This document shows positions 24,337 to 63,767 of a stretch of DNA of 64,000 nt, piece by piece. The stretch is from Alphaproteobacteria bacterium (lineage in GTDB: Bacteria > Pseudomonadota > Alphaproteobacteria > UBA7985 > JAUIBT01), in the NCBI GenBank assembly GCA_030428565.1, contig JAUIDR010000003.1:62001-126000 (forward strand). Direction: 5' to 3'. Under the pieces are notes generated by a model. It had not been told where the DNA came from. It did not search any database and saw nothing but the letters and a program-made list of their open reading frames with translations. How positions within the stretch are numbered: position 1 is the stretch's first letter; each line of letters opens with the position of its first letter. The position numbers and the translations under genes are program-made.

Positions 24337-24358
24337 TTATTATGTCTGCACATAATAA
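24337..24358. promoter_or_regulatory. Probable HutC operator in divergent hutI-hutF promoter
   Basis: Perfect inverted repeat: TTATTATGT, a 4-bp centre CTGC, then ACATAATAA. It sits in the 75-bp gap between the divergent hutI and hutF starts, in an AT-rich patch of a GC-rich region. hutC, the pathway's GntR-family repressor gene, is the second gene of the hutF arm. GntR/HutC regulators bind short palindromes of this size, so one site could shut both arms. The consensus differs from the Pseudomonas HutC site I know of, so assignment rests on position and symmetry. Confidence 0.7.
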
Positions 24359-24378: not shown

Positions 24379-25746
24379 ATGCAGGAGATTTGGGCGAAGA
24401 CCGCTTTGCTGGAGTCTGGCTGGGTAGACAGCGTGAGGCTGACCATCGCAGACGATGGCCGCATTGCCTTGATTGAGCCCAACGCTGCGCCGAGCGGGCA
24501 CGCCGTGGGGGTCTTGCTGCCAGCCCCAGCCAACGCGCACAGCCACGCCTTTCAGCGCGCCATGGCCGGGCTCAGTGAGGCCCGCAGCCCCGAGGGCGGT
24601 TCGGACAGTTTCTGGACTTGGCGAAAGCTTATGTATGGCTTTTTGGATCAACTTGACCCCGAGCAGGTGCAAGCCATCGCCGCCTTCGTACAAATGGAAA
24701 TGGCTGAAGCAGGCTATGCGGCCAACGTCGAATTCCACTATCTGCACCACCAGGCCGACGGTCAGCCCTATGACCAGCTCAGCGAAATGGCAGGACGGAT
24801 CGTCGCCGCGAGCCAGACCAGCGGTCTGGGACTGACCTTGCTGCCGGTTCTCTACGAGTTTGGCGGCTGCGATGGTCGCGCTCTGCAAGGCGGGCAACGG
24901 CGCTTTGGCAACGATTTTGAGCGCTTTGCAAGGCTGCATCAGGAGGCGAGCGCCCTGGCGGCCGCGCTGCCGCAAGATTGCCGGACGGGTGTTGCCCCCC
25001 ACAGCCTGCGCGCGGTGCGCCCCGACGATCTCGCCCGGACCAAGGCACTGGCGGGCGACAACCCGTGGCACATGCACTTAGCCGAACAAATTCCCGAGGT
25101 TGAAGAGGTACAAGCTTACCTGGGTGCGCGCCCGGTGGCATGGCTGCTGGATAATATGGCGCTGGACTCGCGTAGCTGCCTGATCCACTGCACGCAAATG
25201 CAGCCGCACGAGACCCGCGGTTTGGCCGAGAGCGGTGCGATTGCTGGTCTGTGTCCCTTAACCGAATCCAGCTTGGGCGATGGCATCTTTGATGGGGTGA
25301 ACTGGCTAGCGGCGGGCGGACAGTTGGCGCTGGGCTCGGATTCGAACATCCGCATTAGCCTGTCTGAGGAGCTGCGCACCTTGGAATATTCGCAGCGGCT
25401 GCGCGACCATAGCCGTGCAGCGTTGGCGAGCCCCTCGCGCTCGACCGGTCGCAACCTTTGGCACCTGGCCTGCGCGGGCGGGGCGCTTGCTGCGGGACGC
25501 GATGCGGGCGCGCTTGCAGTTGGCTGCCTGGCTGACCTGGTGGCCTTGGACGCAGAAGCGCCGGATTTGGCGGCTGTGGTCGGCGATAGCCTGATCGACA
25601 GCTTCATCTTTGCAGGGCACGATGGCATGGTCACGGATCTGTGGTCGGCGGGGCGTCACCTGGTTAGCCAAGGCCGTCACAAGAACCGCGACGCCATAAC
25701 CGCTGCTTACCTGAAGGCGGTTGCCAGCTTGAGAGGAAAACTTTGA
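24379..25746 (+). CDS. hutF: N-formimino-L-glutamate deiminase
   Basis: Fourth step of the formylglutamate route: N-formimino-L-glutamate to N-formylglutamate and ammonia. A 455-residue amidohydrolase with NAHSHAFQRAMAGL (His54, His56), HYLHHQ, GVAPHSLRAV, MHLAEQ and LALGSDSNIRIS carrying the metal Asp. The start is the ATG at 24379, preceded by a good GTGAGGA site; in-frame codons further up would run into the operator. Presence of hutF together with hutG defines the five-step pathway rather than the formamide-releasing one. It is followed directly by hutC. Confidence 0.96.
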   Translation: MQEIWAKTALLESGWVDSVRLTIADDGRIALIEPNAAPSGHAVGVLLPAPANAHSHAFQRAMAGLSEARSPEGGSDSFWTWRKLMYGFLDQLDPEQVQAIAAFVQMEMAEAGYAANVEFHYLHHQADGQPYDQLSEMAGRIVAASQTSGLGLTLLPVLYEFGGCDGRALQGGQRRFGNDFERFARLHQEASALAAALPQDCRTGVAPHSLRAVRPDDLARTKALAGDNPWHMHLAEQIPEVEEVQAYLGARPVAWLLDNMALDSRSCLIHCTQMQPHETRGLAESGAIAGLCPLTESSLGDGIFDGVNWLAAGGQLALGSDSNIRISLSEELRTLEYSQRLRDHSRAALASPSRSTGRNLWHLACAGGALAAGRDAGALAVGCLADLVALDAEAPDLAAVVGDSLIDSFIFAGHDGMVTDLWSAGRHLVSQGRHKNRDAITAAYLKAVASLRGKL

Positions 25747-26603
25747 GCCAGTCCCCGAAACCGTCTGTGATAGAGCCCGACAAGGCGCAAGCTGACAGGG
25801 CACAAGCCGACAGGGCACAAGCCGACGGGGCACAAGCTGACAGGGCACAAGCTGGCACCCCCCAAGCTGGCACCTCCCAAGCTGGCACCCCCCAAGCTGG
25901 CACCCCCCAAGCTGGCACAATGAGCTGGCAAGCCGTGCAGGAAGAAGCTCTGCGCCGTATTCGCTCGCGTCAATGGCTGCCGGGGGAGCAAATCCCGAAC
26001 GAGGCCGAGCTATCGCGTGAGCTGGGTTGTGCGCGGGCCACGGTCAATCGGGCGCTGCGCAATCTGGCCGAAGCCGGGATTTTGGACCGCCGCCGCAAGG
26101 CAGGCACGCGGGTTGCCCTGCATCCGGTGCGCAAAGCCACCCTGGATATTCCGGTCATCCGCCAAGAGATCGAAGGCAAGGCCATGGGCTATAGCTACAC
26201 CTTGCTGTCGCGCCATCTGGGGGTGCCGCCCATGGATCTGCGCGCGCGCCTTCAATCGCCGGCAGGCCAGGCGCAACTTCACGTCAGCGCGCTGCATTTG
26301 GCGGATGGCCGACCCTATGTGTTTGAAGATCGCTGGATCAATCCTCAGGCTGTGCCCGCCGCACTGGATGCTGACTTTGCCCTGCGCAGTGCCAATGAAT
26401 GGCTGATCGAACAGGTGCCGGTTGAAGGTGGTCAGATCTCGTTTTCGGCCAAGACGGCTTCGGACCAAGACGCCGAGATATTGGCCTGTCAAGCGGGCGA
26501 AGGCCTGTTCGTTATCGACCGAACAACCTGGTCAGGCGGGCAAGTCATTACCTTGGTGCGGTTGGTCTTTCATCCCGGTTATCACATGCATACCCGGCTT
26601 TAG
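25743..26603 (+). CDS. hutC: histidine utilization repressor HutC (GntR family) with repeat-rich N-terminus
   Basis: GntR-family repressor that normally senses urocanate and silences the hut genes. The winged helix is ALRRIRSRQWLPGEQIP, NEAELSRELGCARATVNRAL and AGILDRRRKAGTRV, followed by a UTRA ligand domain (HVSALHLADGRPYVFEDRWIN split, and VIDRTTWSGGQVITLVRLVF). If translation begins at the TTG overlapping the hutF stop, the protein is 286 aa, and residues 13-57 are a nine-fold pentapeptide repeat (DRAQA, GTPQA). If it begins at the ATG at 25920, it is 227 aa, near the usual HutC length, and the repeats are a spacer. The frame is open throughout, but no ribosome-binding site is seen before 25920. 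I favour neither firmly. Confidence 0.9.
   Translation: MSQSPKPSVIEPDKAQADRAQADRAQADGAQADRAQAGTPQAGTSQAGTPQAGTPQAGTMSWQAVQEEALRRIRSRQWLPGEQIPNEAELSRELGCARATVNRALRNLAEAGILDRRRKAGTRVALHPVRKATLDIPVIRQEIEGKAMGYSYTLLSRHLGVPPMDLRARLQSPAGQAQLHVSALHLADGRPYVFEDRWINPQAVPAALDADFALRSANEWLIEQVPVEGGQISFSAKTASDQDAEILACQAGEGLFVIDRTTWSGGQVITLVRLVFHPGYHMHTRL
25779..25913. repeat. 15-bp tandem repeat, nine units, at hutF-hutC junction
   Basis: Five units of the type GACAGGGCACAAGCC are followed by four of the type GGCACCCCCCAAGCT; both share the tail C(A/C)CAAGC. Total 135 bp. It is the longest array in the window, with few mismatches within each block, which suggests recent expansion. It keeps the hutC frame open and immediately precedes GGCACAATG, the alternative start. 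Confidence 0.97.
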
Positions 26604-29069: not shown

Positions 29070-31892
29070 ATGGCGGATAGACGCTATAATCGGGGACCGG
29101 ATCGCAGTTTGGACCCGAATGCGAGCAACCCCCTGCGCATGAGCGCGGATGAGCCGATCAGCGTGGCGCAGCGGCAGGCGCTGGACGAGCCGCGCTCTGC
29201 ACCCGGGCCGTCAGGGCGTCCGGCGGGACAGGCGGCGCGCTCGCCGCGCCAAGGGCAAGTGCCAAATCAGGCCCAGAATCAGGCCCAAAATCAGCCCCCG
29301 AATCAAACTCGGCGAGCAGGCCAATATCCGGCGCAAAGGGCCAGGCAACAGGCTGGGCCGGTTCGCGCCGCGACCAAGCAGGCCTCAGGGCCAGGATTGT
29401 GGGATCGCGCTAAAGGGCTCTTGGGCGCAGCGCCGACGCAACCCCAGTCGCGCCAAGCGGCCCAGCAAGAACACGCAAGGCAGCAGCAGGCCCAGCGGCA
29501 ACAGGCCCAGCAGCAACAAGCGCGTCGCGAATGGGAGCAGGCCCAACGGCAGGCTGCTCAACAAGAAGCAGCCCAGCGAGAGGCGGCCCAAAGGGAAGCA
29601 GAAAGGCGCCGCCAGGCTCAGCGCCAAAAAGAGCAACGCCAAAAAGAGCAACGCCAGAACGCGCAACGCCAGCAGGCCCAACGCGAGCACGCACAACGCG
29701 AACGCGCCCGTGCCGAGCAGGAACAGCAAGAACGGGCCCGCCAAGAACGGGTCCGCCAAGAACAGGCTCAACGCGAGCATGAAGAGCGCGAGCGTTTGGC
29801 CTGGGAGCAAGCGCAACGTGAACACGCCAGGCAACAGCAGGCCCAACAACAGCGTGTCCAGCAGGAACGCGCCCAGCAGGAACGGAAAAGGCGCGAGTAC
29901 GCCGCCCAACAGCGCCGCCAGTGGGAGGCCGAGCAGCGCGCGCGACAAGAGCAAGCACAGCGGGCTCAAATGGAGCGTGCAGCCTTCGAGCAGCAGCGTC
30001 AGCAACAGGCCCAGGCCCAGGCCCAGCAAGAGGCTGGCCCATCCCCCACATCGCAGCCTCAACAAGGCGATGGCGGCAAAGGGCGCTTTGCGCGCCGCGT
30101 TGCGGCCCAACGGGGCGAGCCTGCCCGGTCAAGCGAGCCTGCCCGGTCAAGCGGGACTTCCCAGTCAAGCGAGCCTTCCCAGCCAAGCGAGCCTGTCCAG
30201 CCAAGCGCTGGGGGTCAGCCAAACGCGGGTGTCCAAGGCTCAGCCGAAGCGCGGCCCCAAGTTGAGACCCAAAACCCGCAACCAAAGCGAGCCGATGCAC
30301 CCCAGCAACGGACTCAGCGCGCGCAGGTAGAAAAGACCAAGCGAGCAGAAAAAGCGAAGAAATCGCCCAAGGCTGGCAAGCCGCAACGCCAGCAGGCTGA
30401 TGACGCCGCGAACAGCAAACAGGACCACAGCGAGGCCGAAAAGCCACGCAAGAGCGGTGGATTCACGTTGCCTTGGTTTGGGAAGCGGAAGGACAAGACG
30501 ACCAGCGCGGAGGCGGCCTCGCCCGAGCCAGCGTCGATAAGCGAAGCGCCAAAGTCGGTAGAGGGGGCGCAGCCCAAGCAGGCCACGCCAAAGCCTGACC
30601 CGATCCTAGCCGCTCAAGCGGACAAGGCTCCGCCCGCACCAGGCGGTGCGGCCCAGGACAGCAGCGGGACCGAGGCAGCCAAATCAGACACAGACACCGG
30701 CAAGCCAGACACCGGTAAGCCAGACACCGGTAAGCCAGACCTAGGCAATCCGGAGCGGGCAAGCGCGAGCAAGGAGGCAAAGCCAACAGAAGGCGACCAG
30801 ACCTCAGCTGATGCCAAGCCCAGCGCCCCGCCGCCGCCGCCGTTGCCCAAGGCTAAGAAACTGCTGCCGAAAGTAGCGTCCCCGACCAAGGCGGCAGCGG
30901 ACCAAACCGGAACGACGACAGTTCAAGCCGCCGCCGCACAAACCAATCCAAGCGCCGGCAATGGCGCTGAGCCAGCGTTGCCGTCCCAAGAGCAAGCAGC
31001 GCCCGCCCAGCCATCTGGGGCGGCCCCAAGGCCCGTGCCAGAGCCGACGGACCCCACCGCTGCGCCCGCATCACGGCTGATCATCGATGCCCCACGACGC
31101 GCCAGTGCAAAGCCCGCGCGGCCGGCTCGCCGGTCCAATCTGCCCCCCATGCCCGCCCTGGATCGCAATTTTCCGGGCCTAGTCGCGCTTAATTTGCAGA
31201 AGTCATTCGGCAAGCGCAGAGTCTTGCACGACGTCAATATTGGCATTCGCCCAGGCGAGGTCGTCGGCCTGCTAGGCCCGAACGGCGCGGGCAAGACCAC
31301 GAGCTTTTACATCGTCTGCGGTCTGATTCAGGCGGATAAGGGCTATGTTGGCATCAATCAGCGCAACGTCAGTACCCTCCCCATGTATCGGCGCGCCAAG
31401 TTCGGCTTGGGCTACCTGCCGCAAGAAGCCTCGATTTTCCGCGGCTTGACAGTCGAGCAAAACATTATGGCGGCGCTGGAGGTGGTGCAGCCCGACCGTA
31501 AAAAGCGCAAGGCGCGACTGGAAGAGCTGTTGGCCGAATTCTCCATCAGCCACCTGCGCACGGTCAATGCCCTGGCGCTGTCGGGCGGTGAGCGGCGACG
31601 GACCGAGATTGCCCGCTCGCTGGCCAGCAATCCACAGTACATCCTGTTGGACGAGCCCTTCGCGGGCGTCGATCCCATCGCGGTCGGCGATATCCGCAGC
31701 CTGGTCGGTCAGCTCAAGCAACGCGGCATCGGCGTGCTGATCACCGATCACAACGTGCGCGACACGCTCAACGTGGTCGATCGCGCTTACATCATCTATG
31801 ACGGCCGGGTGTTGATGCAGGGCGAGCCTGCTGAAATCGTGCAAGATGAGCGCGTGCGCCAGGTCTATCTGGGCTCGGATTTCGAGCTTTAA
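29070..31892 (+). CDS. lptB: LPS export ABC transporter ATPase LptB with ~690-residue N-terminal extension
   Basis: The C-terminal ~240 residues are a complete LptB: Walker A GPNGAGKTT at 736-744, LSGGERRR from 837, Walker B ILLDEPFAGVDP from 858, the H-loop in LITDHNVRDTLN, and a YLGSDFEL tail. LptB normally is only this domain and powers LPS extraction from the inner membrane. Here it is preceded by about 690 residues in one open frame: a polar start (1-130), a long Gln/Ala/Arg/Glu stretch (about 130-330) with a five-residue period that should be helical, and Pro/Ala/Ser/Lys-rich disordered sequence (330-690). A strong AGGGCGAGG site lies just before the ATG at 29070, 8 bp after lptA. No ribosome-binding site precedes the Met694 that would give a normal LptB. 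So a 940-residue protein is predicted. Confidence 0.93.
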   Translation: MADRRYNRGPDRSLDPNASNPLRMSADEPISVAQRQALDEPRSAPGPSGRPAGQAARSPRQGQVPNQAQNQAQNQPPNQTRRAGQYPAQRARQQAGPVRAATKQASGPGLWDRAKGLLGAAPTQPQSRQAAQQEHARQQQAQRQQAQQQQARREWEQAQRQAAQQEAAQREAAQREAERRRQAQRQKEQRQKEQRQNAQRQQAQREHAQRERARAEQEQQERARQERVRQEQAQREHEERERLAWEQAQREHARQQQAQQQRVQQERAQQERKRREYAAQQRRQWEAEQRARQEQAQRAQMERAAFEQQRQQQAQAQAQQEAGPSPTSQPQQGDGGKGRFARRVAAQRGEPARSSEPARSSGTSQSSEPSQPSEPVQPSAGGQPNAGVQGSAEARPQVETQNPQPKRADAPQQRTQRAQVEKTKRAEKAKKSPKAGKPQRQQADDAANSKQDHSEAEKPRKSGGFTLPWFGKRKDKTTSAEAASPEPASISEAPKSVEGAQPKQATPKPDPILAAQADKAPPAPGGAAQDSSGTEAAKSDTDTGKPDTGKPDTGKPDLGNPERASASKEAKPTEGDQTSADAKPSAPPPPPLPKAKKLLPKVASPTKAAADQTGTTTVQAAAAQTNPSAGNGAEPALPSQEQAAPAQPSGAAPRPVPEPTDPTAAPASRLIIDAPRRASAKPARPARRSNLPPMPALDRNFPGLVALNLQKSFGKRRVLHDVNIGIRPGEVVGLLGPNGAGKTTSFYIVCGLIQADKGYVGINQRNVSTLPMYRRAKFGLGYLPQEASIFRGLTVEQNIMAALEVVQPDRKKRKARLEELLAEFSISHLRTVNALALSGGERRRTEIARSLASNPQYILLDEPFAGVDPIAVGDIRSLVGQLKQRGIGVLITDHNVRDTLNVVDRAYIIYDGRVLMQGEPAEIVQDERVRQVYLGSDFEL
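29265..29312. repeat. 12-bp tandem repeat in lptB N-terminal region
   Basis: Four units on the pattern AATCAGGCCCAG, giving NQAQ-NQAQ-NQPP-NQTR. The unit resembles the AATCAGGG(T/C)GCC array in the Sel1/SPOR gene. Confidence 0.85.
29622..29696. repeat. 15-bp tandem repeat in lptB helical region
   Basis: Units CGCCAAAAAGAGCAA (two identical), then CGCCAGAACGCGCAA, CGCCAGCAGGCCCAA and CGCGAGCACGCACAA. They encode RQKEQ, RQKEQ, RQNAQ, RQQAQ, REHAQ. The five-residue period continues in diverged form to about 29990, so the whole helix may have grown from this unit. Confidence 0.9.
30116..30205. repeat. 18-bp tandem repeat, five units, in lptB
   Basis: Units of the type CGAGCCTGCCCGGTCAAG; copies 1 and 2 are identical and copies 3-5 diverge. 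They encode a six-residue period: EPARSS, EPARSS, GTSQSS, EPSQPS, EPVQPS. Confidence 0.93.
30693..30752. repeat. 15-bp tandem repeat, four units, in lptB
   Basis: GACACCGGCAAGCCA, then GACACCGGTAAGCCA twice, then a diverged unit: DTGKP three times and DLGNP. Confidence 0.92.
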
Positions 31893-35547: not shown

Positions 35548-35631
35548 GCCTGTCTTGGTGAACCTGTCTTGGTGAACCTGTCTGGGGGCACCTGTCTGGG
35601 GGCACCTGTCTGGGGGCACCTGTCTGGGGGC
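35548..35631. repeat. 14-bp tandem repeat, six units, in ptsN-lpxK spacer
   Basis: One copy of GCCTGTCTTGGTGA, one of ACCTGTCTTGGTGA and four identical copies of ACCTGTCTGGGGGC, ending just before CTAGCAG. The unit is not a multiple of three, and the array lies between the convergent ends of ptsN and lpxK. The four identical copies point to recent expansion. Reading frames through it are accidental. Confidence 0.96.
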
Positions 35632-59900: not shown

Positions 59901-60136
59901 GGCATCTGCATGGCGGCAAGCAAACCGCCTCAATCGTTGCCACCCGTGCGCCCGAAAAGGACATTGATGGCCTGATCGAAGAAGCTGAAGCTGGCATTCA
60001 CGCGCTGATCGACGCTTTTTTCCAGGACGATCAGCCCTACTATTCCTTTGCCGATATCGGCCCCAAAAAGCGCTTTGACGACTATTTGCATTTGCATCGT
60101 CTGGCTGAATGGCAGGGCAACGATCATGAGGCTTGA
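56948..60136 (+). CDS. addB: double-strand break repair protein AddB
   Basis: Subunit of the AddAB helicase-nuclease, which resects double-strand breaks and loads RecA, replacing RecBCD. The 1062-residue alphaproteobacterial-type AddB begins IPARCGFTDVLAAQLL, has LPNRRAVRSLQEAFL and ILAGSTGSIKATRALM, and the C-terminal nuclease motif LAIIDYKTGKVPS preceded by ADRGNALHKSLEDF. Start is GTG at 56948 or 56951 after GCGAGG. A short Lys/Ala/Ser-rich stretch near residue 560 (PGKATSKASGEG) looks like a diverged repeat. It overlaps addA by 11 bp, so synthesis of the two subunits is coupled. Confidence 0.96.
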   Translation: MVSQNEASKGGEPKDKIWTIPARCGFTDVLAAQLLAEVARGDLVLEDATILLPNRRAVRSLQEAFLRQSEAKALLLPRLMAVGDLDSDELETLDLLDLPANLATALALQSDIPEAIATQDRRLLLTQLILAAKGLFSESLDQALAMADELARLLDQCQTEAISLDQLDTLAQEAELSEHWQKTLRFLSLVRDIWPEILHERQVCDPAERRHKLMMLQAQYWAELTPPQPFILAGSTGSIKATRALMKTVLGLPRGRLILPGLDTHLPAEVWPQVAQTPSHPQFGFALLQSEIGFDPSAVPELEAAQRPEFQLSAPERIALCQLAMLPAEAIAEPSHGWQAPRGLGDSAWQGLSYLESADGAQEAANIALALRHAIEQPGRTAALVTPDRGLARRVQAELARFDVLVEESAGTPLKNTSLGAFVRLTARALAEDWAPVALLSVLKHPLARLGLAPQVLRHQVRALEMLVLRGPRPAERGLPGLKAAVEQRMRDIKEEGGHLAPLERFIPDALALLAQLETLAALLTTQWQRGDQALGERLQCHLAVLEALSEPAPQASGEVPGKATSKASGEGVTPDLFGQDDQEAPISSLWQGEEGQAFEQLSLDLLAAAGSMSDLVLPAKDYGEVFDSLMGDQPIRKAYGTHPRLAIWGTMEARLQKSDLMILGGLNEGVWPVPTDTGPWMSRPMRAAIGLPSPERKIGLAAHDFCQAFGAKQVMLSRALKVGGAPSVPSRWLLRLDSVLPPASKLKDLAVAEPYHAWSRRLRQPASIQPRPRPAPNPPLDERPRSLSVTHIRTWMHDPYDLYAKKILGLNRLDPIDADPSPADRGNALHKSLEDFIAAYGVTLPTDAEAWLVDHAQACADARLNAPLERRFWQERLARIVPWFIAQQRERLPEIAAIQGETSEAWSLTKLKSERDFRLKARADRVDLLKAGGLAIIDYKTGKVPSFPDMQKGLEPQLPLEAVIAQNKGWGSFAPKPVTSLEHWHLHGGKQTASIVATRAPEKDIDGLIEEAEAGIHALIDAFFQDDQPYYSFADIGPKKRFDDYLHLHRLAEWQGNDHEA

Positions 60137-63100
60137 AGCTGAAGGCATGACCATAGTTTGGGCGGCAAGCGATGGCCCGAGCGGCGGCGGCGACCGCGTC
60201 GCAGCGGCCAGCCACATACAAGGCCAGGCCAGCGATCCTGGCGTATCGGCTTGGGTGGGGGCATCGGCGGGTTCTGGCAAGACCAAGGTCTTGATTGACC
60301 GCATGTTGCGCTTGCTGGTAGCGGGGGCTGAGCCTCACCGCATTTTGGCGCTGACCTTTACCAACACGGCGGCGGCCGAGATGGCTAACCGCCTGCAAAG
60401 CAAACTGGCCGAATGGGCCGTGATGGCGCGACCCAAACTGGCCGAGGTCTTGGAAAAAGACCTGCTCAAGCGCCCCGCAGAGCGCGAGGAGTTAGAGCGG
60501 GCACAAGCGCTGTTTGCTCGGGTCTTGGATGCGCCCGGCGGCATGAAAATCCAGACCATCCATTCGTTTTGTCAGTCTTTGCTGGGGCGCTTTCCGGTCG
60601 AGAGTAACACGCCGCCGCGCTTTCGCTTGTTGGACGATCGCGGTCGCGCCGAGCTGTTGAATGCTGAGCTGACCGATATCATCTTGGACGCCTACCAGCA
60701 CCCGGAAGCAGCCATGGGGCAGGCGCTGACCCATCTAACCGAGAGCCTGCAAGATACCGGCTTTCGCGACGCCATGTTGGGTGCCGCAAAGAAACGCGCG
60801 CGCTTGCAGCGGCTGACACAAAGCGGGGGATTGGCGGCTTTACTGGCTGAGATGAAGTCCAAGCTGGGTGTTGATCTGCAGTCCTCGCGTGAGGCGTTGA
60901 TCGCGCGCGCTATCGGCCCTGAAGCCATCGCAGAGACGGGCTTTCGCGGTGTCTGGGAAGTGATGCGCAATGCCAAGGGAAAGCACATGGCTGCGGCCAT
61001 GCAGGCGCTGACCGCCTTGTTCGATGACAGCTTGAGCCTGGAAGAGGCTTGGGAGCTGGCTCAAAGCGAGCTTCTGAAAAAGACAGATCAGGAAATCCGC
61101 ACGCACAATTTCCCAACCAAAGGCGACTTGGACGCTTTCCCCGAAGTGCTGGAACCCTTGCGGGCCTTCCAAGCAGGGGTGAAGGGCTGCTTTGATGCGC
61201 TGCTCGCGCGCGATCTCTACCGGGCGAACGAAGCTTTCTTGACCGTTTTGGCCGAGCTCCTCACCCGTTTCGAGCGCGCGAAAATGGCCCGGTCCTTGCT
61301 GGATTTTGATGACCTGATCGAGCGCGCAGGCCTGTTGTTGGAAGATAGTGCCTTGTGGGTCCACTATAAGCTGGATCAGGGCCTGGATCACATCTTGGTC
61401 GATGAAGCGCAAGATACCAACCCTGCGCAATGGAAGGTGATCCAGGGGCTGGCAGATCTGTTTTTTGATTCGCCCCCCGAGGCCTTCGAGCGCCCCCGCA
61501 GCTTGTTTGTGGTCGGCGATGAAAAGCAGTCGATTTTTTCCTTTCAACAAGCCGATCCACGCAAGTTTTCGCAAATGCGCCAATACTTTAAGCAGCGCGC
61601 GGGCGAGAGCGGACACGATTTTAGAGACTTGAGCCTCGACGTTTCTTTCCGCTCGGTCCCGGCGATTTTGAACAGTGTCAATCAGGTTTTCGATGATCCG
61701 GCAGCCTTTCGTGGCGTCATTGATGCGGACGCGACCGCCTGGCCGCAACACCAGGCGGCTAGGGCAGGCGAGCCGGGAAAAGTCATCATCTGGCCGGCCT
61801 TTGAGAAGGAAAAGGCGCCCAAATCTGCTGCCAAAGGCGTTGGCGAGGCCGCGGTCGCCAAAGAGGTCGGCTGGAAATTGCCGTTAAAGCCGGTCGCAGA
61901 AGTGCGCACCGATTCGGCCCTGGCGCGCACGCTGGCCCATCAAGTCTATTATTGGTGCTATGACCCCGATGGGATTGATGATCCTGACTGCTATCTAACG
62001 ATCAAATCGCAAAAGGACGACCGTCATTCGCGCCGCCGCATAACGCCGGGCGATATCCTGGTGCTGGTCCGTAAGCGCAACGACTTCGTGGCTGAACTCA
62101 ACGCTCAGCTCAAGGGGCTTGGGGTCACGCAGATTGCCGGTCGCGACCGCATGAAGTTGTCACAGCAATTGGCGGTCCACGACCTCCTGTCGCTCGCGCG
62201 CTTTTTGGTACTGCCGAGCGACGATCTCAATCTGGCGGGCCTTTTGAAATCGCCGCTGGTTGAGCTGAGCGAAGCGCAGCTGTTTGAATTGGCAGCCGGA
62301 CGGGGCAAGAAAAGCCTCTGGGAGGCCCTGGAGGGCAAGGCGAGCGGCGCTGCGACTGGTGGCGCTGCAACTGGTGGCGCTGCAACTGGTGGCGCTGCAA
62401 GCGAGGGCGATGAGACCGGCGGTGCGACCGTCGATCAGGCCCACCGCTTCTTGGCGGCTTGTCTGGCGCGCGCCGATGCTCAGCCGCTGTATGAGCTGTT
62501 CGTTTGGGTCTTGGGCCACCACCAGGGCCGCTCGCGGCTGCTGCATCGCCTAGGCCTGGATGCAGAAGATGCCATCGACGAGTTCATAAACCTGGCACTG
62601 GATTACGACGCCCAGCATCCACCGTCGCTGCAAGGCTTCTTGAAGTGGATGGAAGGCGATGAGGTCGAGATTAAGCGCGATATGGAGGCGGGCGACGGTA
62701 AGCTGCGCATCATGACCGTTCACGGCTCCAAGGGCCTGCAAGCGCCGATCGTGGTGCTGCCCCTGGTAGAGACGAAGAAACCCAAGGGCGATCCTTGGCT
62801 GTTCGATGAGAACGGCATGCCTTTATGGTTGCAGAACAAGGACATGGCCGAGAGCTACGCCAAGGGCCTCAAGGATCAACAGCAGCAGGACGAAGAGGAA
62901 GAATCGCGCCGTTTGCTCTATGTTGCGCTGACACGCGCCTCGGACCGCTTGCTGATCTGTGGGGCCGATACCAAGGGCAAGGGCTGGTACAACCTGGTCA
63001 GCCAACGCATGCAGGCCATGGTGTCGCCGGGCCAGGCTCCGCCCGCAGTTGAAGCGCGCTTGCCCGAGCCGCCACAGGTCTTTGAGCCGCTGGCCGCTCC

Positions 63101-63767
63101 AGACCCTTCGCAAATGGTCGATACGGCAGCACCGCTGAGCACCGCGCGTGGTACAGATCAGGGCGCGGTACTGGATGAGGGTCAAGACAGCCTGCCGGAT
63201 TGGCTCGTGGGTCCGCTGCCGATTGAACCGCAACCCCCGCGCCCACTCAAACCTAGCGAGCAAGAAGCACCGCGCTCCTTCTTCCGCCTAGGCGGTGACG
63301 CGCAAGCTGCCGTCGAGCGCGGAATCCAGGTGCACCGCTTGCTGCAGTATCTGCCGGAACTTTCCGAAGATGCGCGCCAGGATGCCATGGCGCGCTATTT
63401 GGCCACGCAAAACCGCCTGAGCGAGAGCGAGCAAGCGCGAATCGCCGAAGATGTGGCGCGTGTCCTTGCCAGCGCAGAACTGGCGTTTGCCTTTGAACCG
63501 GGCTCTAGAGCGGAGGTGCCGCTGAGCGGCCAGGTCGGTAAAGACCTTATTACCGGGCGAATCGACCGCTTGCATATCGGCGAAGATCGGGTGGTGTTCG
63601 TGGACTATAAGACCGGTGCGCCGCCTTTTGATGGCCGCCCGCCGCGCGCCTACAGCACGCAGTTGCGTCAGTATGCGGCCGTGCTGAAACAGATCTATCC
63701 CGGGCGCACAATCGAGGCTTTCTTAGTCTGGACCCGCAGCGCCGAAGTTATGGCGGTGGCTGTCTAA
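60126..63767 (+). CDS. addA: double-strand break repair helicase AddA
   Basis: UvrD-family helicase plus nuclease subunit of AddAB. The 1213-residue protein has Walker A VGASAGSGKTKVL near residue 40, LALTFTNTAAAEMANRL, the DEAQDTNPAQWKVIQGL Walker B, GDEKQSIFSFQQADP, RIMTVHGSKGLQAPIVVLPL, LLYVALTRASDRLLICG, and the C-terminal nuclease VVFVDYKTGAPP. The start at 60126 overlaps addB; 60147 is an alternative. An insertion near residues 741-760 (GAATG repeated four times) comes from a 15-bp array. A Pro/Ala/Gln-rich linker near 960-1030 precedes the nuclease domain. Its stop overlaps the convergent regulator gene. Confidence 0.96.
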   Translation: MRLEAEGMTIVWAASDGPSGGGDRVAAASHIQGQASDPGVSAWVGASAGSGKTKVLIDRMLRLLVAGAEPHRILALTFTNTAAAEMANRLQSKLAEWAVMARPKLAEVLEKDLLKRPAEREELERAQALFARVLDAPGGMKIQTIHSFCQSLLGRFPVESNTPPRFRLLDDRGRAELLNAELTDIILDAYQHPEAAMGQALTHLTESLQDTGFRDAMLGAAKKRARLQRLTQSGGLAALLAEMKSKLGVDLQSSREALIARAIGPEAIAETGFRGVWEVMRNAKGKHMAAAMQALTALFDDSLSLEEAWELAQSELLKKTDQEIRTHNFPTKGDLDAFPEVLEPLRAFQAGVKGCFDALLARDLYRANEAFLTVLAELLTRFERAKMARSLLDFDDLIERAGLLLEDSALWVHYKLDQGLDHILVDEAQDTNPAQWKVIQGLADLFFDSPPEAFERPRSLFVVGDEKQSIFSFQQADPRKFSQMRQYFKQRAGESGHDFRDLSLDVSFRSVPAILNSVNQVFDDPAAFRGVIDADATAWPQHQAARAGEPGKVIIWPAFEKEKAPKSAAKGVGEAAVAKEVGWKLPLKPVAEVRTDSALARTLAHQVYYWCYDPDGIDDPDCYLTIKSQKDDRHSRRRITPGDILVLVRKRNDFVAELNAQLKGLGVTQIAGRDRMKLSQQLAVHDLLSLARFLVLPSDDLNLAGLLKSPLVELSEAQLFELAAGRGKKSLWEALEGKASGAATGGAATGGAATGGAASEGDETGGATVDQAHRFLAACLARADAQPLYELFVWVLGHHQGRSRLLHRLGLDAEDAIDEFINLALDYDAQHPPSLQGFLKWMEGDEVEIKRDMEAGDGKLRIMTVHGSKGLQAPIVVLPLVETKKPKGDPWLFDENGMPLWLQNKDMAESYAKGLKDQQQQDEEEESRRLLYVALTRASDRLLICGADTKGKGWYNLVSQRMQAMVSPGQAPPAVEARLPEPPQVFEPLAAPDPSQMVDTAAPLSTARGTDQGAVLDEGQDSLPDWLVGPLPIEPQPPRPLKPSEQEAPRSFFRLGGDAQAAVERGIQVHRLLQYLPELSEDARQDAMARYLATQNRLSESEQARIAEDVARVLASAELAFAFEPGSRAEVPLSGQVGKDLITGRIDRLHIGEDRVVFVDYKTGAPPFDGRPPRAYSTQLRQYAAVLKQIYPGRTIEAFLVWTRSAEVMAVAV
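62346..62405. repeat. 15-bp tandem repeat, four units, in addA
   Basis: GGCGCTGCGACTGGT, then GGCGCTGCAACTGGT twice, then GGCGCTGCAAGCGAG. Encodes GAATG three times and GAASE, at residues 741-760, within the second helicase half. Confidence 0.94.

Follow-up and report, generated by a model that had tools for sequence, protein, structure and literature searches.

A tandem array of nine 15-bp units at the junction of hutF and hutC raises the question of whether it is translated as part of the HutC repressor or stands untranslated in front of it, and of what it could do in histidine catabolism in either case. An earlier note on this DNA had set both readings side by side and suggested a possible contingency locus whose copy number could set the amount or activity of the repressor. 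Our analysis of the window, the whole stretch of 64,000 nucleotides in which the locus lies, and of related genomes makes it rather likely that the array arose recently and in this lineage by an in-frame minisatellite expansion within the hutC coding sequence, and that it would be translated as a disordered tail.

The hut locus and the HutC repressor

The hutF product scored 528.3 bits against TIGR02022 (cut-off 413.05) and 619.1 against NF006684 (cut-off 525), and its divergent minus-strand neighbours were read as hutI, hutH, hutG and hutU from their translations alone. hutI and hutF diverge, and the 75 bp that separate them hold the perfect palindrome TTATTATGT-CTGC-ACATAATAA, predicted to be the HutC operator (Table 1); ATTATGTNNNNACATAAT matches positions 24339-24356 with 0 mismatches, the chance mean being 0.29 at up to 3 mismatches. 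The palindrome core ATTATGTCTGCACATAAT is kept in G001, a genome of the same genus (contig L042), and many other hut loci have palindromes of the TTATGT-NNNN-ACATAA type upstream of hutF. We infer that HutC binds at this palindrome.

Table 1. Coordinates of features at the hut locus of the window
Feature	Position	Strand	Remarks
Inverted repeat TTATTATGT-CTGC-ACATAATAA, predicted HutC operator	24337-24358		perfect palindrome
hutF, formimidoylglutamate deiminase, 455 aa	24379-25746	+	stop TGA 25744-25746
GAGAGG, likely Shine-Dalgarno sequence of hutC	25731-25736	+	6 nt before TTG 25743
hutC, histidine utilization repressor, 286 aa from TTG	25743-26603	+	GntR 65-124, UTRA 150-278
N-terminal HutC leader containing the array, 59 codons	25743-25919	+	modal length 6 codons in relatives
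Array of nine 15-bp units	25779-25913	+	five units of the D[KR][AG] type followed by four of the GT[PS] type
ATG, alternative start of the earlier note	25920-25922	+	without evident Shine-Dalgarno sequence; start not conserved
AGCTGGCA	25923-25930	+	first conserved HutC codons; also in an array unit and at the array-less G001 junction

HutC itself scored 258.8 bits against TIGR02018 (cut-off 220) over residues 62-285, with Pfam GntR (PF00392) and UTRA (PF07702) both over their cut-offs. In domain content, in its operon partner hutF and in its probable operator type it is like the other GntR-UTRA repressors of the HutC kind (TIGR02018), unlike which it carries a 59-codon leader instead of the usual 6 codons. 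AlphaFold2 gave residues 61-286 a pLDDT nearly always above 80 and mostly above 90, and residues 1-60, which immediately precede the DNA-binding domain, a pLDDT of 40-60 with a low-confidence helix modelled at 14-34; because the 30-sequence alignment used as input covers the tail with zero rows, such low values are expected there whatever the structure of the tail. In our reading the tail has about 55 residues and is probably disordered. The conserved core would be expected to go on acting at the hutI/hutF operator, and the effect of the tail on repression would most likely be small.

Structure of the array

TRF and unit alignment returned nine 15-bp units, a copy number that may be an assembly value in this draft of 114 contigs, and the position, period and division into five and four units described in the earlier note hold. 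TRF reports the array as two rows, 25779-25854 (15 bp x 5.1, score 117) and 25848-25918 (15 bp x 4.7, score 135); in the register of the earlier note the five units are of the GACAGGGCACAAGCT type and the four of the GGCACCCCCCAAGCT type. Read in the HutC frame as (QADRA)n(QAGTP)n, and leaving aside the degenerate edge units (EPDKA, the first, and QAGTM, the last), units of one sub-family agree at 13-15 of their 15 bases and units of different sub-families at 8-10, identities that fit the stepwise expansion of two sub-families that had been suggested.

The nine-unit array far exceeds chance. Codon shuffling of the 59-codon leader, repeated 1000 times, gave a maximum TRF score of 64 and never reached 100. 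Resampling the whole window under a first-order Markov model gave no array at a score of at least 50 in 17 of 20 cases and one or two in the remaining 3, against 24 such arrays observed. The octamer AGCTGGCA is a possible seed of the array. When the 44-residue repeat was searched in G000, G001 and G002, only weak matches beyond the repeat itself were returned (best other E 0.0029), and on this search the unit was rejected as a mobile or shared element. In the literature that we searched on tandem repeats, minisatellites, intragenic VNTRs and divisibility by three, a repeat or VNTR in hutC was unreported.

The start codon of hutC

The TTG that the earlier note had placed over the hutF stop is present at 25743-25745 (TTGA), and the frame from it is open through the array into HutC; a second frame of the array is open too, and openness by itself therefore proves little. 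Pairing with the anti-Shine-Dalgarno sequence reaches -6.0 kcal/mol at this TTG versus -3.3 kcal/mol before ATG 25920, on a scale where the median for random 17-mers drawn from the window is -2.6 kcal/mol and 19% of them reach -5.

The hutF-hutC junction was then compared in 80 loci fetched with a HutC alignment, 62 of which were analysable as hutF followed by hutC (17 had no hutF or hutC hit and 1 was otherwise arranged). An NTG overlapping the hutF TGA, in frame with HutC, was found at 52 of the 62 junctions, these 52 including L042, the G001 contig. The overlapping codons were 21 ATG, 13 GTG, 12 TTG and 6 CTG, the last of which may not be true starts, and their median Shine-Dalgarno pairing was -5.5 kcal/mol. 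Leaders in the same 52 relatives measure 2-36 codons with a mode of 6 (36/52), and in just five is there a later ATG up to and including the core codon.

On these comparisons, translation of hutC from TTG 25743 is the best reading and probably the one that the cell uses, and ATG 25920 is probably an internal Met codon. Two observations count against the TTG: it is an inefficient start codon, and the overlap start of G001 has weak pairing (-2.9 kcal/mol).

Around the start of HutC, 6 of 74 relatives have a TRF row with a score of at least 40 between -250 and +60, and only two of the six rows lie in a leader or spacer. One is a 12 bp x 2.4 array in a low-complexity leader (L080). The other, in Stappia sp. 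BW2 (L085, 2915-3000), is an independent, non-coding 13 bp x 5.4 array with in-frame stops, which separates hutF and hutC, genes that usually overlap.

Comparison with congeners

G001 keeps the hutF stop, the TTGA overlap, the frame and the HutC core, and lacks the array, the two flanks abutting each other, with a HutC leader of 10 codons there versus 59 here. The overlap start in this array-less congener, together with its conservation in the relatives, supports the pentapeptide tail that the earlier note had offered as one of its two readings. HutC is 77% identical to its G001 counterpart over residues 57-286, and the core has a dN of 0.164 and a dS of 1.73, which places the repressor core under purifying selection. 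In the second congener, G002, a close HutC was not found (best E 3.7e-5), and recent turnover of the hutC array is deduced from one congener. G001 has a 12/24-bp array between the end of hutC and an RNase D-like gene, close to hutC (L003, 1320-1375), which is absent from the window.

Taken alone, the hutC array would give a known repressor a minor N-terminal tail. The 4-base overlap conserved with and without it in two congeners provides a dated example of the gain of a new low-complexity tail with the operon unbroken.

Alternative readings and proposed origin

If hutC were started at ATG 25920, as the earlier note also envisaged, the array would be an untranslated spacer that only fixes how far the hutC start lies from the hutF stop, and thereby tunes reinitiation. 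Of the two start codons ATG is the better one, this ATG is a single codon away from the first conserved HutC residues, and Stappia sp. BW2 has a non-coding array at the same junction, although the spacer idea fits that genome better than this window. Against it stand the pairing before this ATG, close to the random median, the conservation of the overlap start set against the rarity of later ATG codons, the distance of about 170 nt, which is far for reinitiation without a Shine-Dalgarno sequence, and the length of the units, all nine of them 15 bp, whereas arrays outside ORFs in the genus are mostly not multiples of three (46/62). We therefore consider an untranslated spacer distinctly unlikely. 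Quite improbable, too, is that copy number in a translated tail alters the dimer activity, solubility or DNA affinity of HutC and makes the array a contingency locus of histidine catabolism. The tail does stand directly before the DNA-binding domain, steps of 15 bp would change it gradually, and tandem repeats in promoters of M. tuberculosis are reported to be phase-variable (PMC12817950). However, the leader is conserved and of near-constant length in relatives, so that its length is hardly a general means of tuning, the array is absent from G001, and many unrelated genes of the genus contain arrays of a similar kind.

A contingency locus of the switching kind fares no better: with units of 15 bp, changes in copy number cannot shift the frame, so an on/off switch is unlikely, and the array is inside the operon and not at the hutI/hutF promoter region, so that neither frame nor promoter spacing offers a way for copy change to switch expression. 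An RNA switch was rejected as well, since the 221-nt leader folds no better than its shuffles (z 0.25; 120 of 200 shuffles at least as stable). The M. tuberculosis repeats resemble the hutC array in being tandem copies beside a gene with a possible quantitative effect and differ from it in acting through promoters (PMC12817950), the hutC array being probably translated, in-operon and frame-preserving. An assembly or sequencing artefact seems very improbable. The genome is a draft, and tandem repeats are known to mis-assemble, according to sections of PMC9879509, but two diverged sub-families with point differences, an intact frame into a conserved gene and arrays of the same kind carried independently elsewhere by congeners speak against it; the copy number could still be off.

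We return to an in-frame coding minisatellite, with 15-bp units inside an open reading frame. Bacterial intragenic VNTR or minisatellite loci carry in-frame tandem units inside a gene, presumably in variable copy number, and the hutC array is like them in its in-frame units within a gene. A ribosome finishing hutF would pass into hutC through the TTGA overlap and would translate the array as (QADRA)4-5(QAGTP/S)4-5 ahead of the winged-helix domain of HutC. Slippage or unequal recombination would probably have given rise to the tail, with AGCTGGCA at the first conserved HutC codons as a possible seed, and the tail could have grown in two rounds of expansion, one for each sub-family; purifying selection would then retain those in-gene arrays whose units are divisible by three and which lie outside folded domains. 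The tail is probably near-neutral, and the array would seem to be one of the ordinary outcomes of an active minisatellite process.

Tandem arrays across the genome, the genus and the class

The hutC array is not singular, its two TRF rows ranking 6th and 14th of the 98 arrays in 356 kb of the source genome. At a TRF score of at least 50, arrays per 100 kb number 37.5 in the window and 25.4, 20.6 and 13.1 in the genus samples G000, G001 and G002. Samples of the same order gave 4.6 (G003), 1.5 (G004), 4.4 (G005, G007 and G009 together) and 0 (G006, 4 kb). Samples of 40-55 kb from the rest of the class gave 5.5 (G011), 0 (G014), 5.0 (G024), 15.0 (G025), 27.5 (G043), 2.5 (G050) and 0 (G051). Array density is high in the genus, yet not unique within the class. 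Loss of repair genes was rejected as the cause of the many arrays, polA and mutS being present in 8 of 8 genomes tested, and recJ in 7 of them, the one exception being G001, whose completeness is 86%.

Array periods cluster at 12-18 bp inside and outside ORFs alike. In the genus samples they are divisible by three in 107 of 120 in-ORF arrays versus 16 of 62 elsewhere (Fisher p 6e-18, a value that treats arrays as independent and depends on a crude longest-frame rule for calling ORFs that can exaggerate this bias). Of the 21 array clusters of the window, 16 could be mapped to the syntenic G001 contig and 5 could not, and the array is absent there at 13 of the 16; conversely, the 19 clusters of G001 comprise 10 unmapped ones (6 of these beyond the shared stretch) and 9 mapped ones, 6 of which have no array in the window. 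At three sites both genomes carry an array, so that turnover is incomplete. In the simplest view, arrays are generated everywhere by a mutational process and filtered by the reading frame.

The nearest described case is that of the tandem repeats of Borg elements, for which the sections of PMC9879509 consulted report that every in-ORF repeat unit is divisible by three, as against only 14-38% of intergenic ones. As far as those sections go, the arrays of this genus resemble the Borg repeats in their short unique units, rarely conserved between close relatives, in the divisibility by three of in-ORF units and not of most intergenic ones, and in their low-complexity, putatively disordered product. 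They differ from the Borg repeats of the same sections (PMC9879509) in being hosted by a bacterial chromosome, in their imperfect units, and in that 13 of 120 in-ORF arrays are not divisible by three under the crude ORF call. A more far-reaching reading sees in the genus a Borg-like, chromosome-wide process that continually produces 12-18-bp arrays which, filtered by reading frame, turn into new disordered tails on conserved housekeeping and regulatory proteins, such as HutC and, with an extension of about 690 residues, an LptB-like ABC ATPase, the length of the HutC tail altering the strength of hut repression; we regard this reading as unlikely. Should the abundance of 12-18-bp arrays hold throughout the genus, it would offer a chromosome on which to follow the birth of disordered regions gene by gene.

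The ABC ATPase at 29070-31892 of the window, which we take to be LptB-like, has its Pfam ABC_tran domain at residues 719-865 and is preceded by two genes that resemble the LptC and LptA type. Its N-terminal extension of about 690 residues is of low complexity, rich in Q, A and P, and contains many short arrays. The open frame has 951-953 codons in 3 of 3 genus genomes versus 254-299 in 7 of 7 others, and compared with G001 both ends of the extension are conserved and the repeats differ. Elsewhere in the window, a 14 bp x 5.9 array (35549-35631, score 124), outside ORFs of at least 100 aa, is absent at the corresponding place in G001, and an in-frame 15 bp x 3.7 array (62346-62400) lies inside a UvrD-helicase/PDDEXK nuclease protein (60048-63767). 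Units much exceeding the usual 12-18 bp are found in G002, where non-ORF arrays of 104-bp units occur in 4.5 copies (L169, 5066-5533) and 4.0 copies (L171, 18495-18907).
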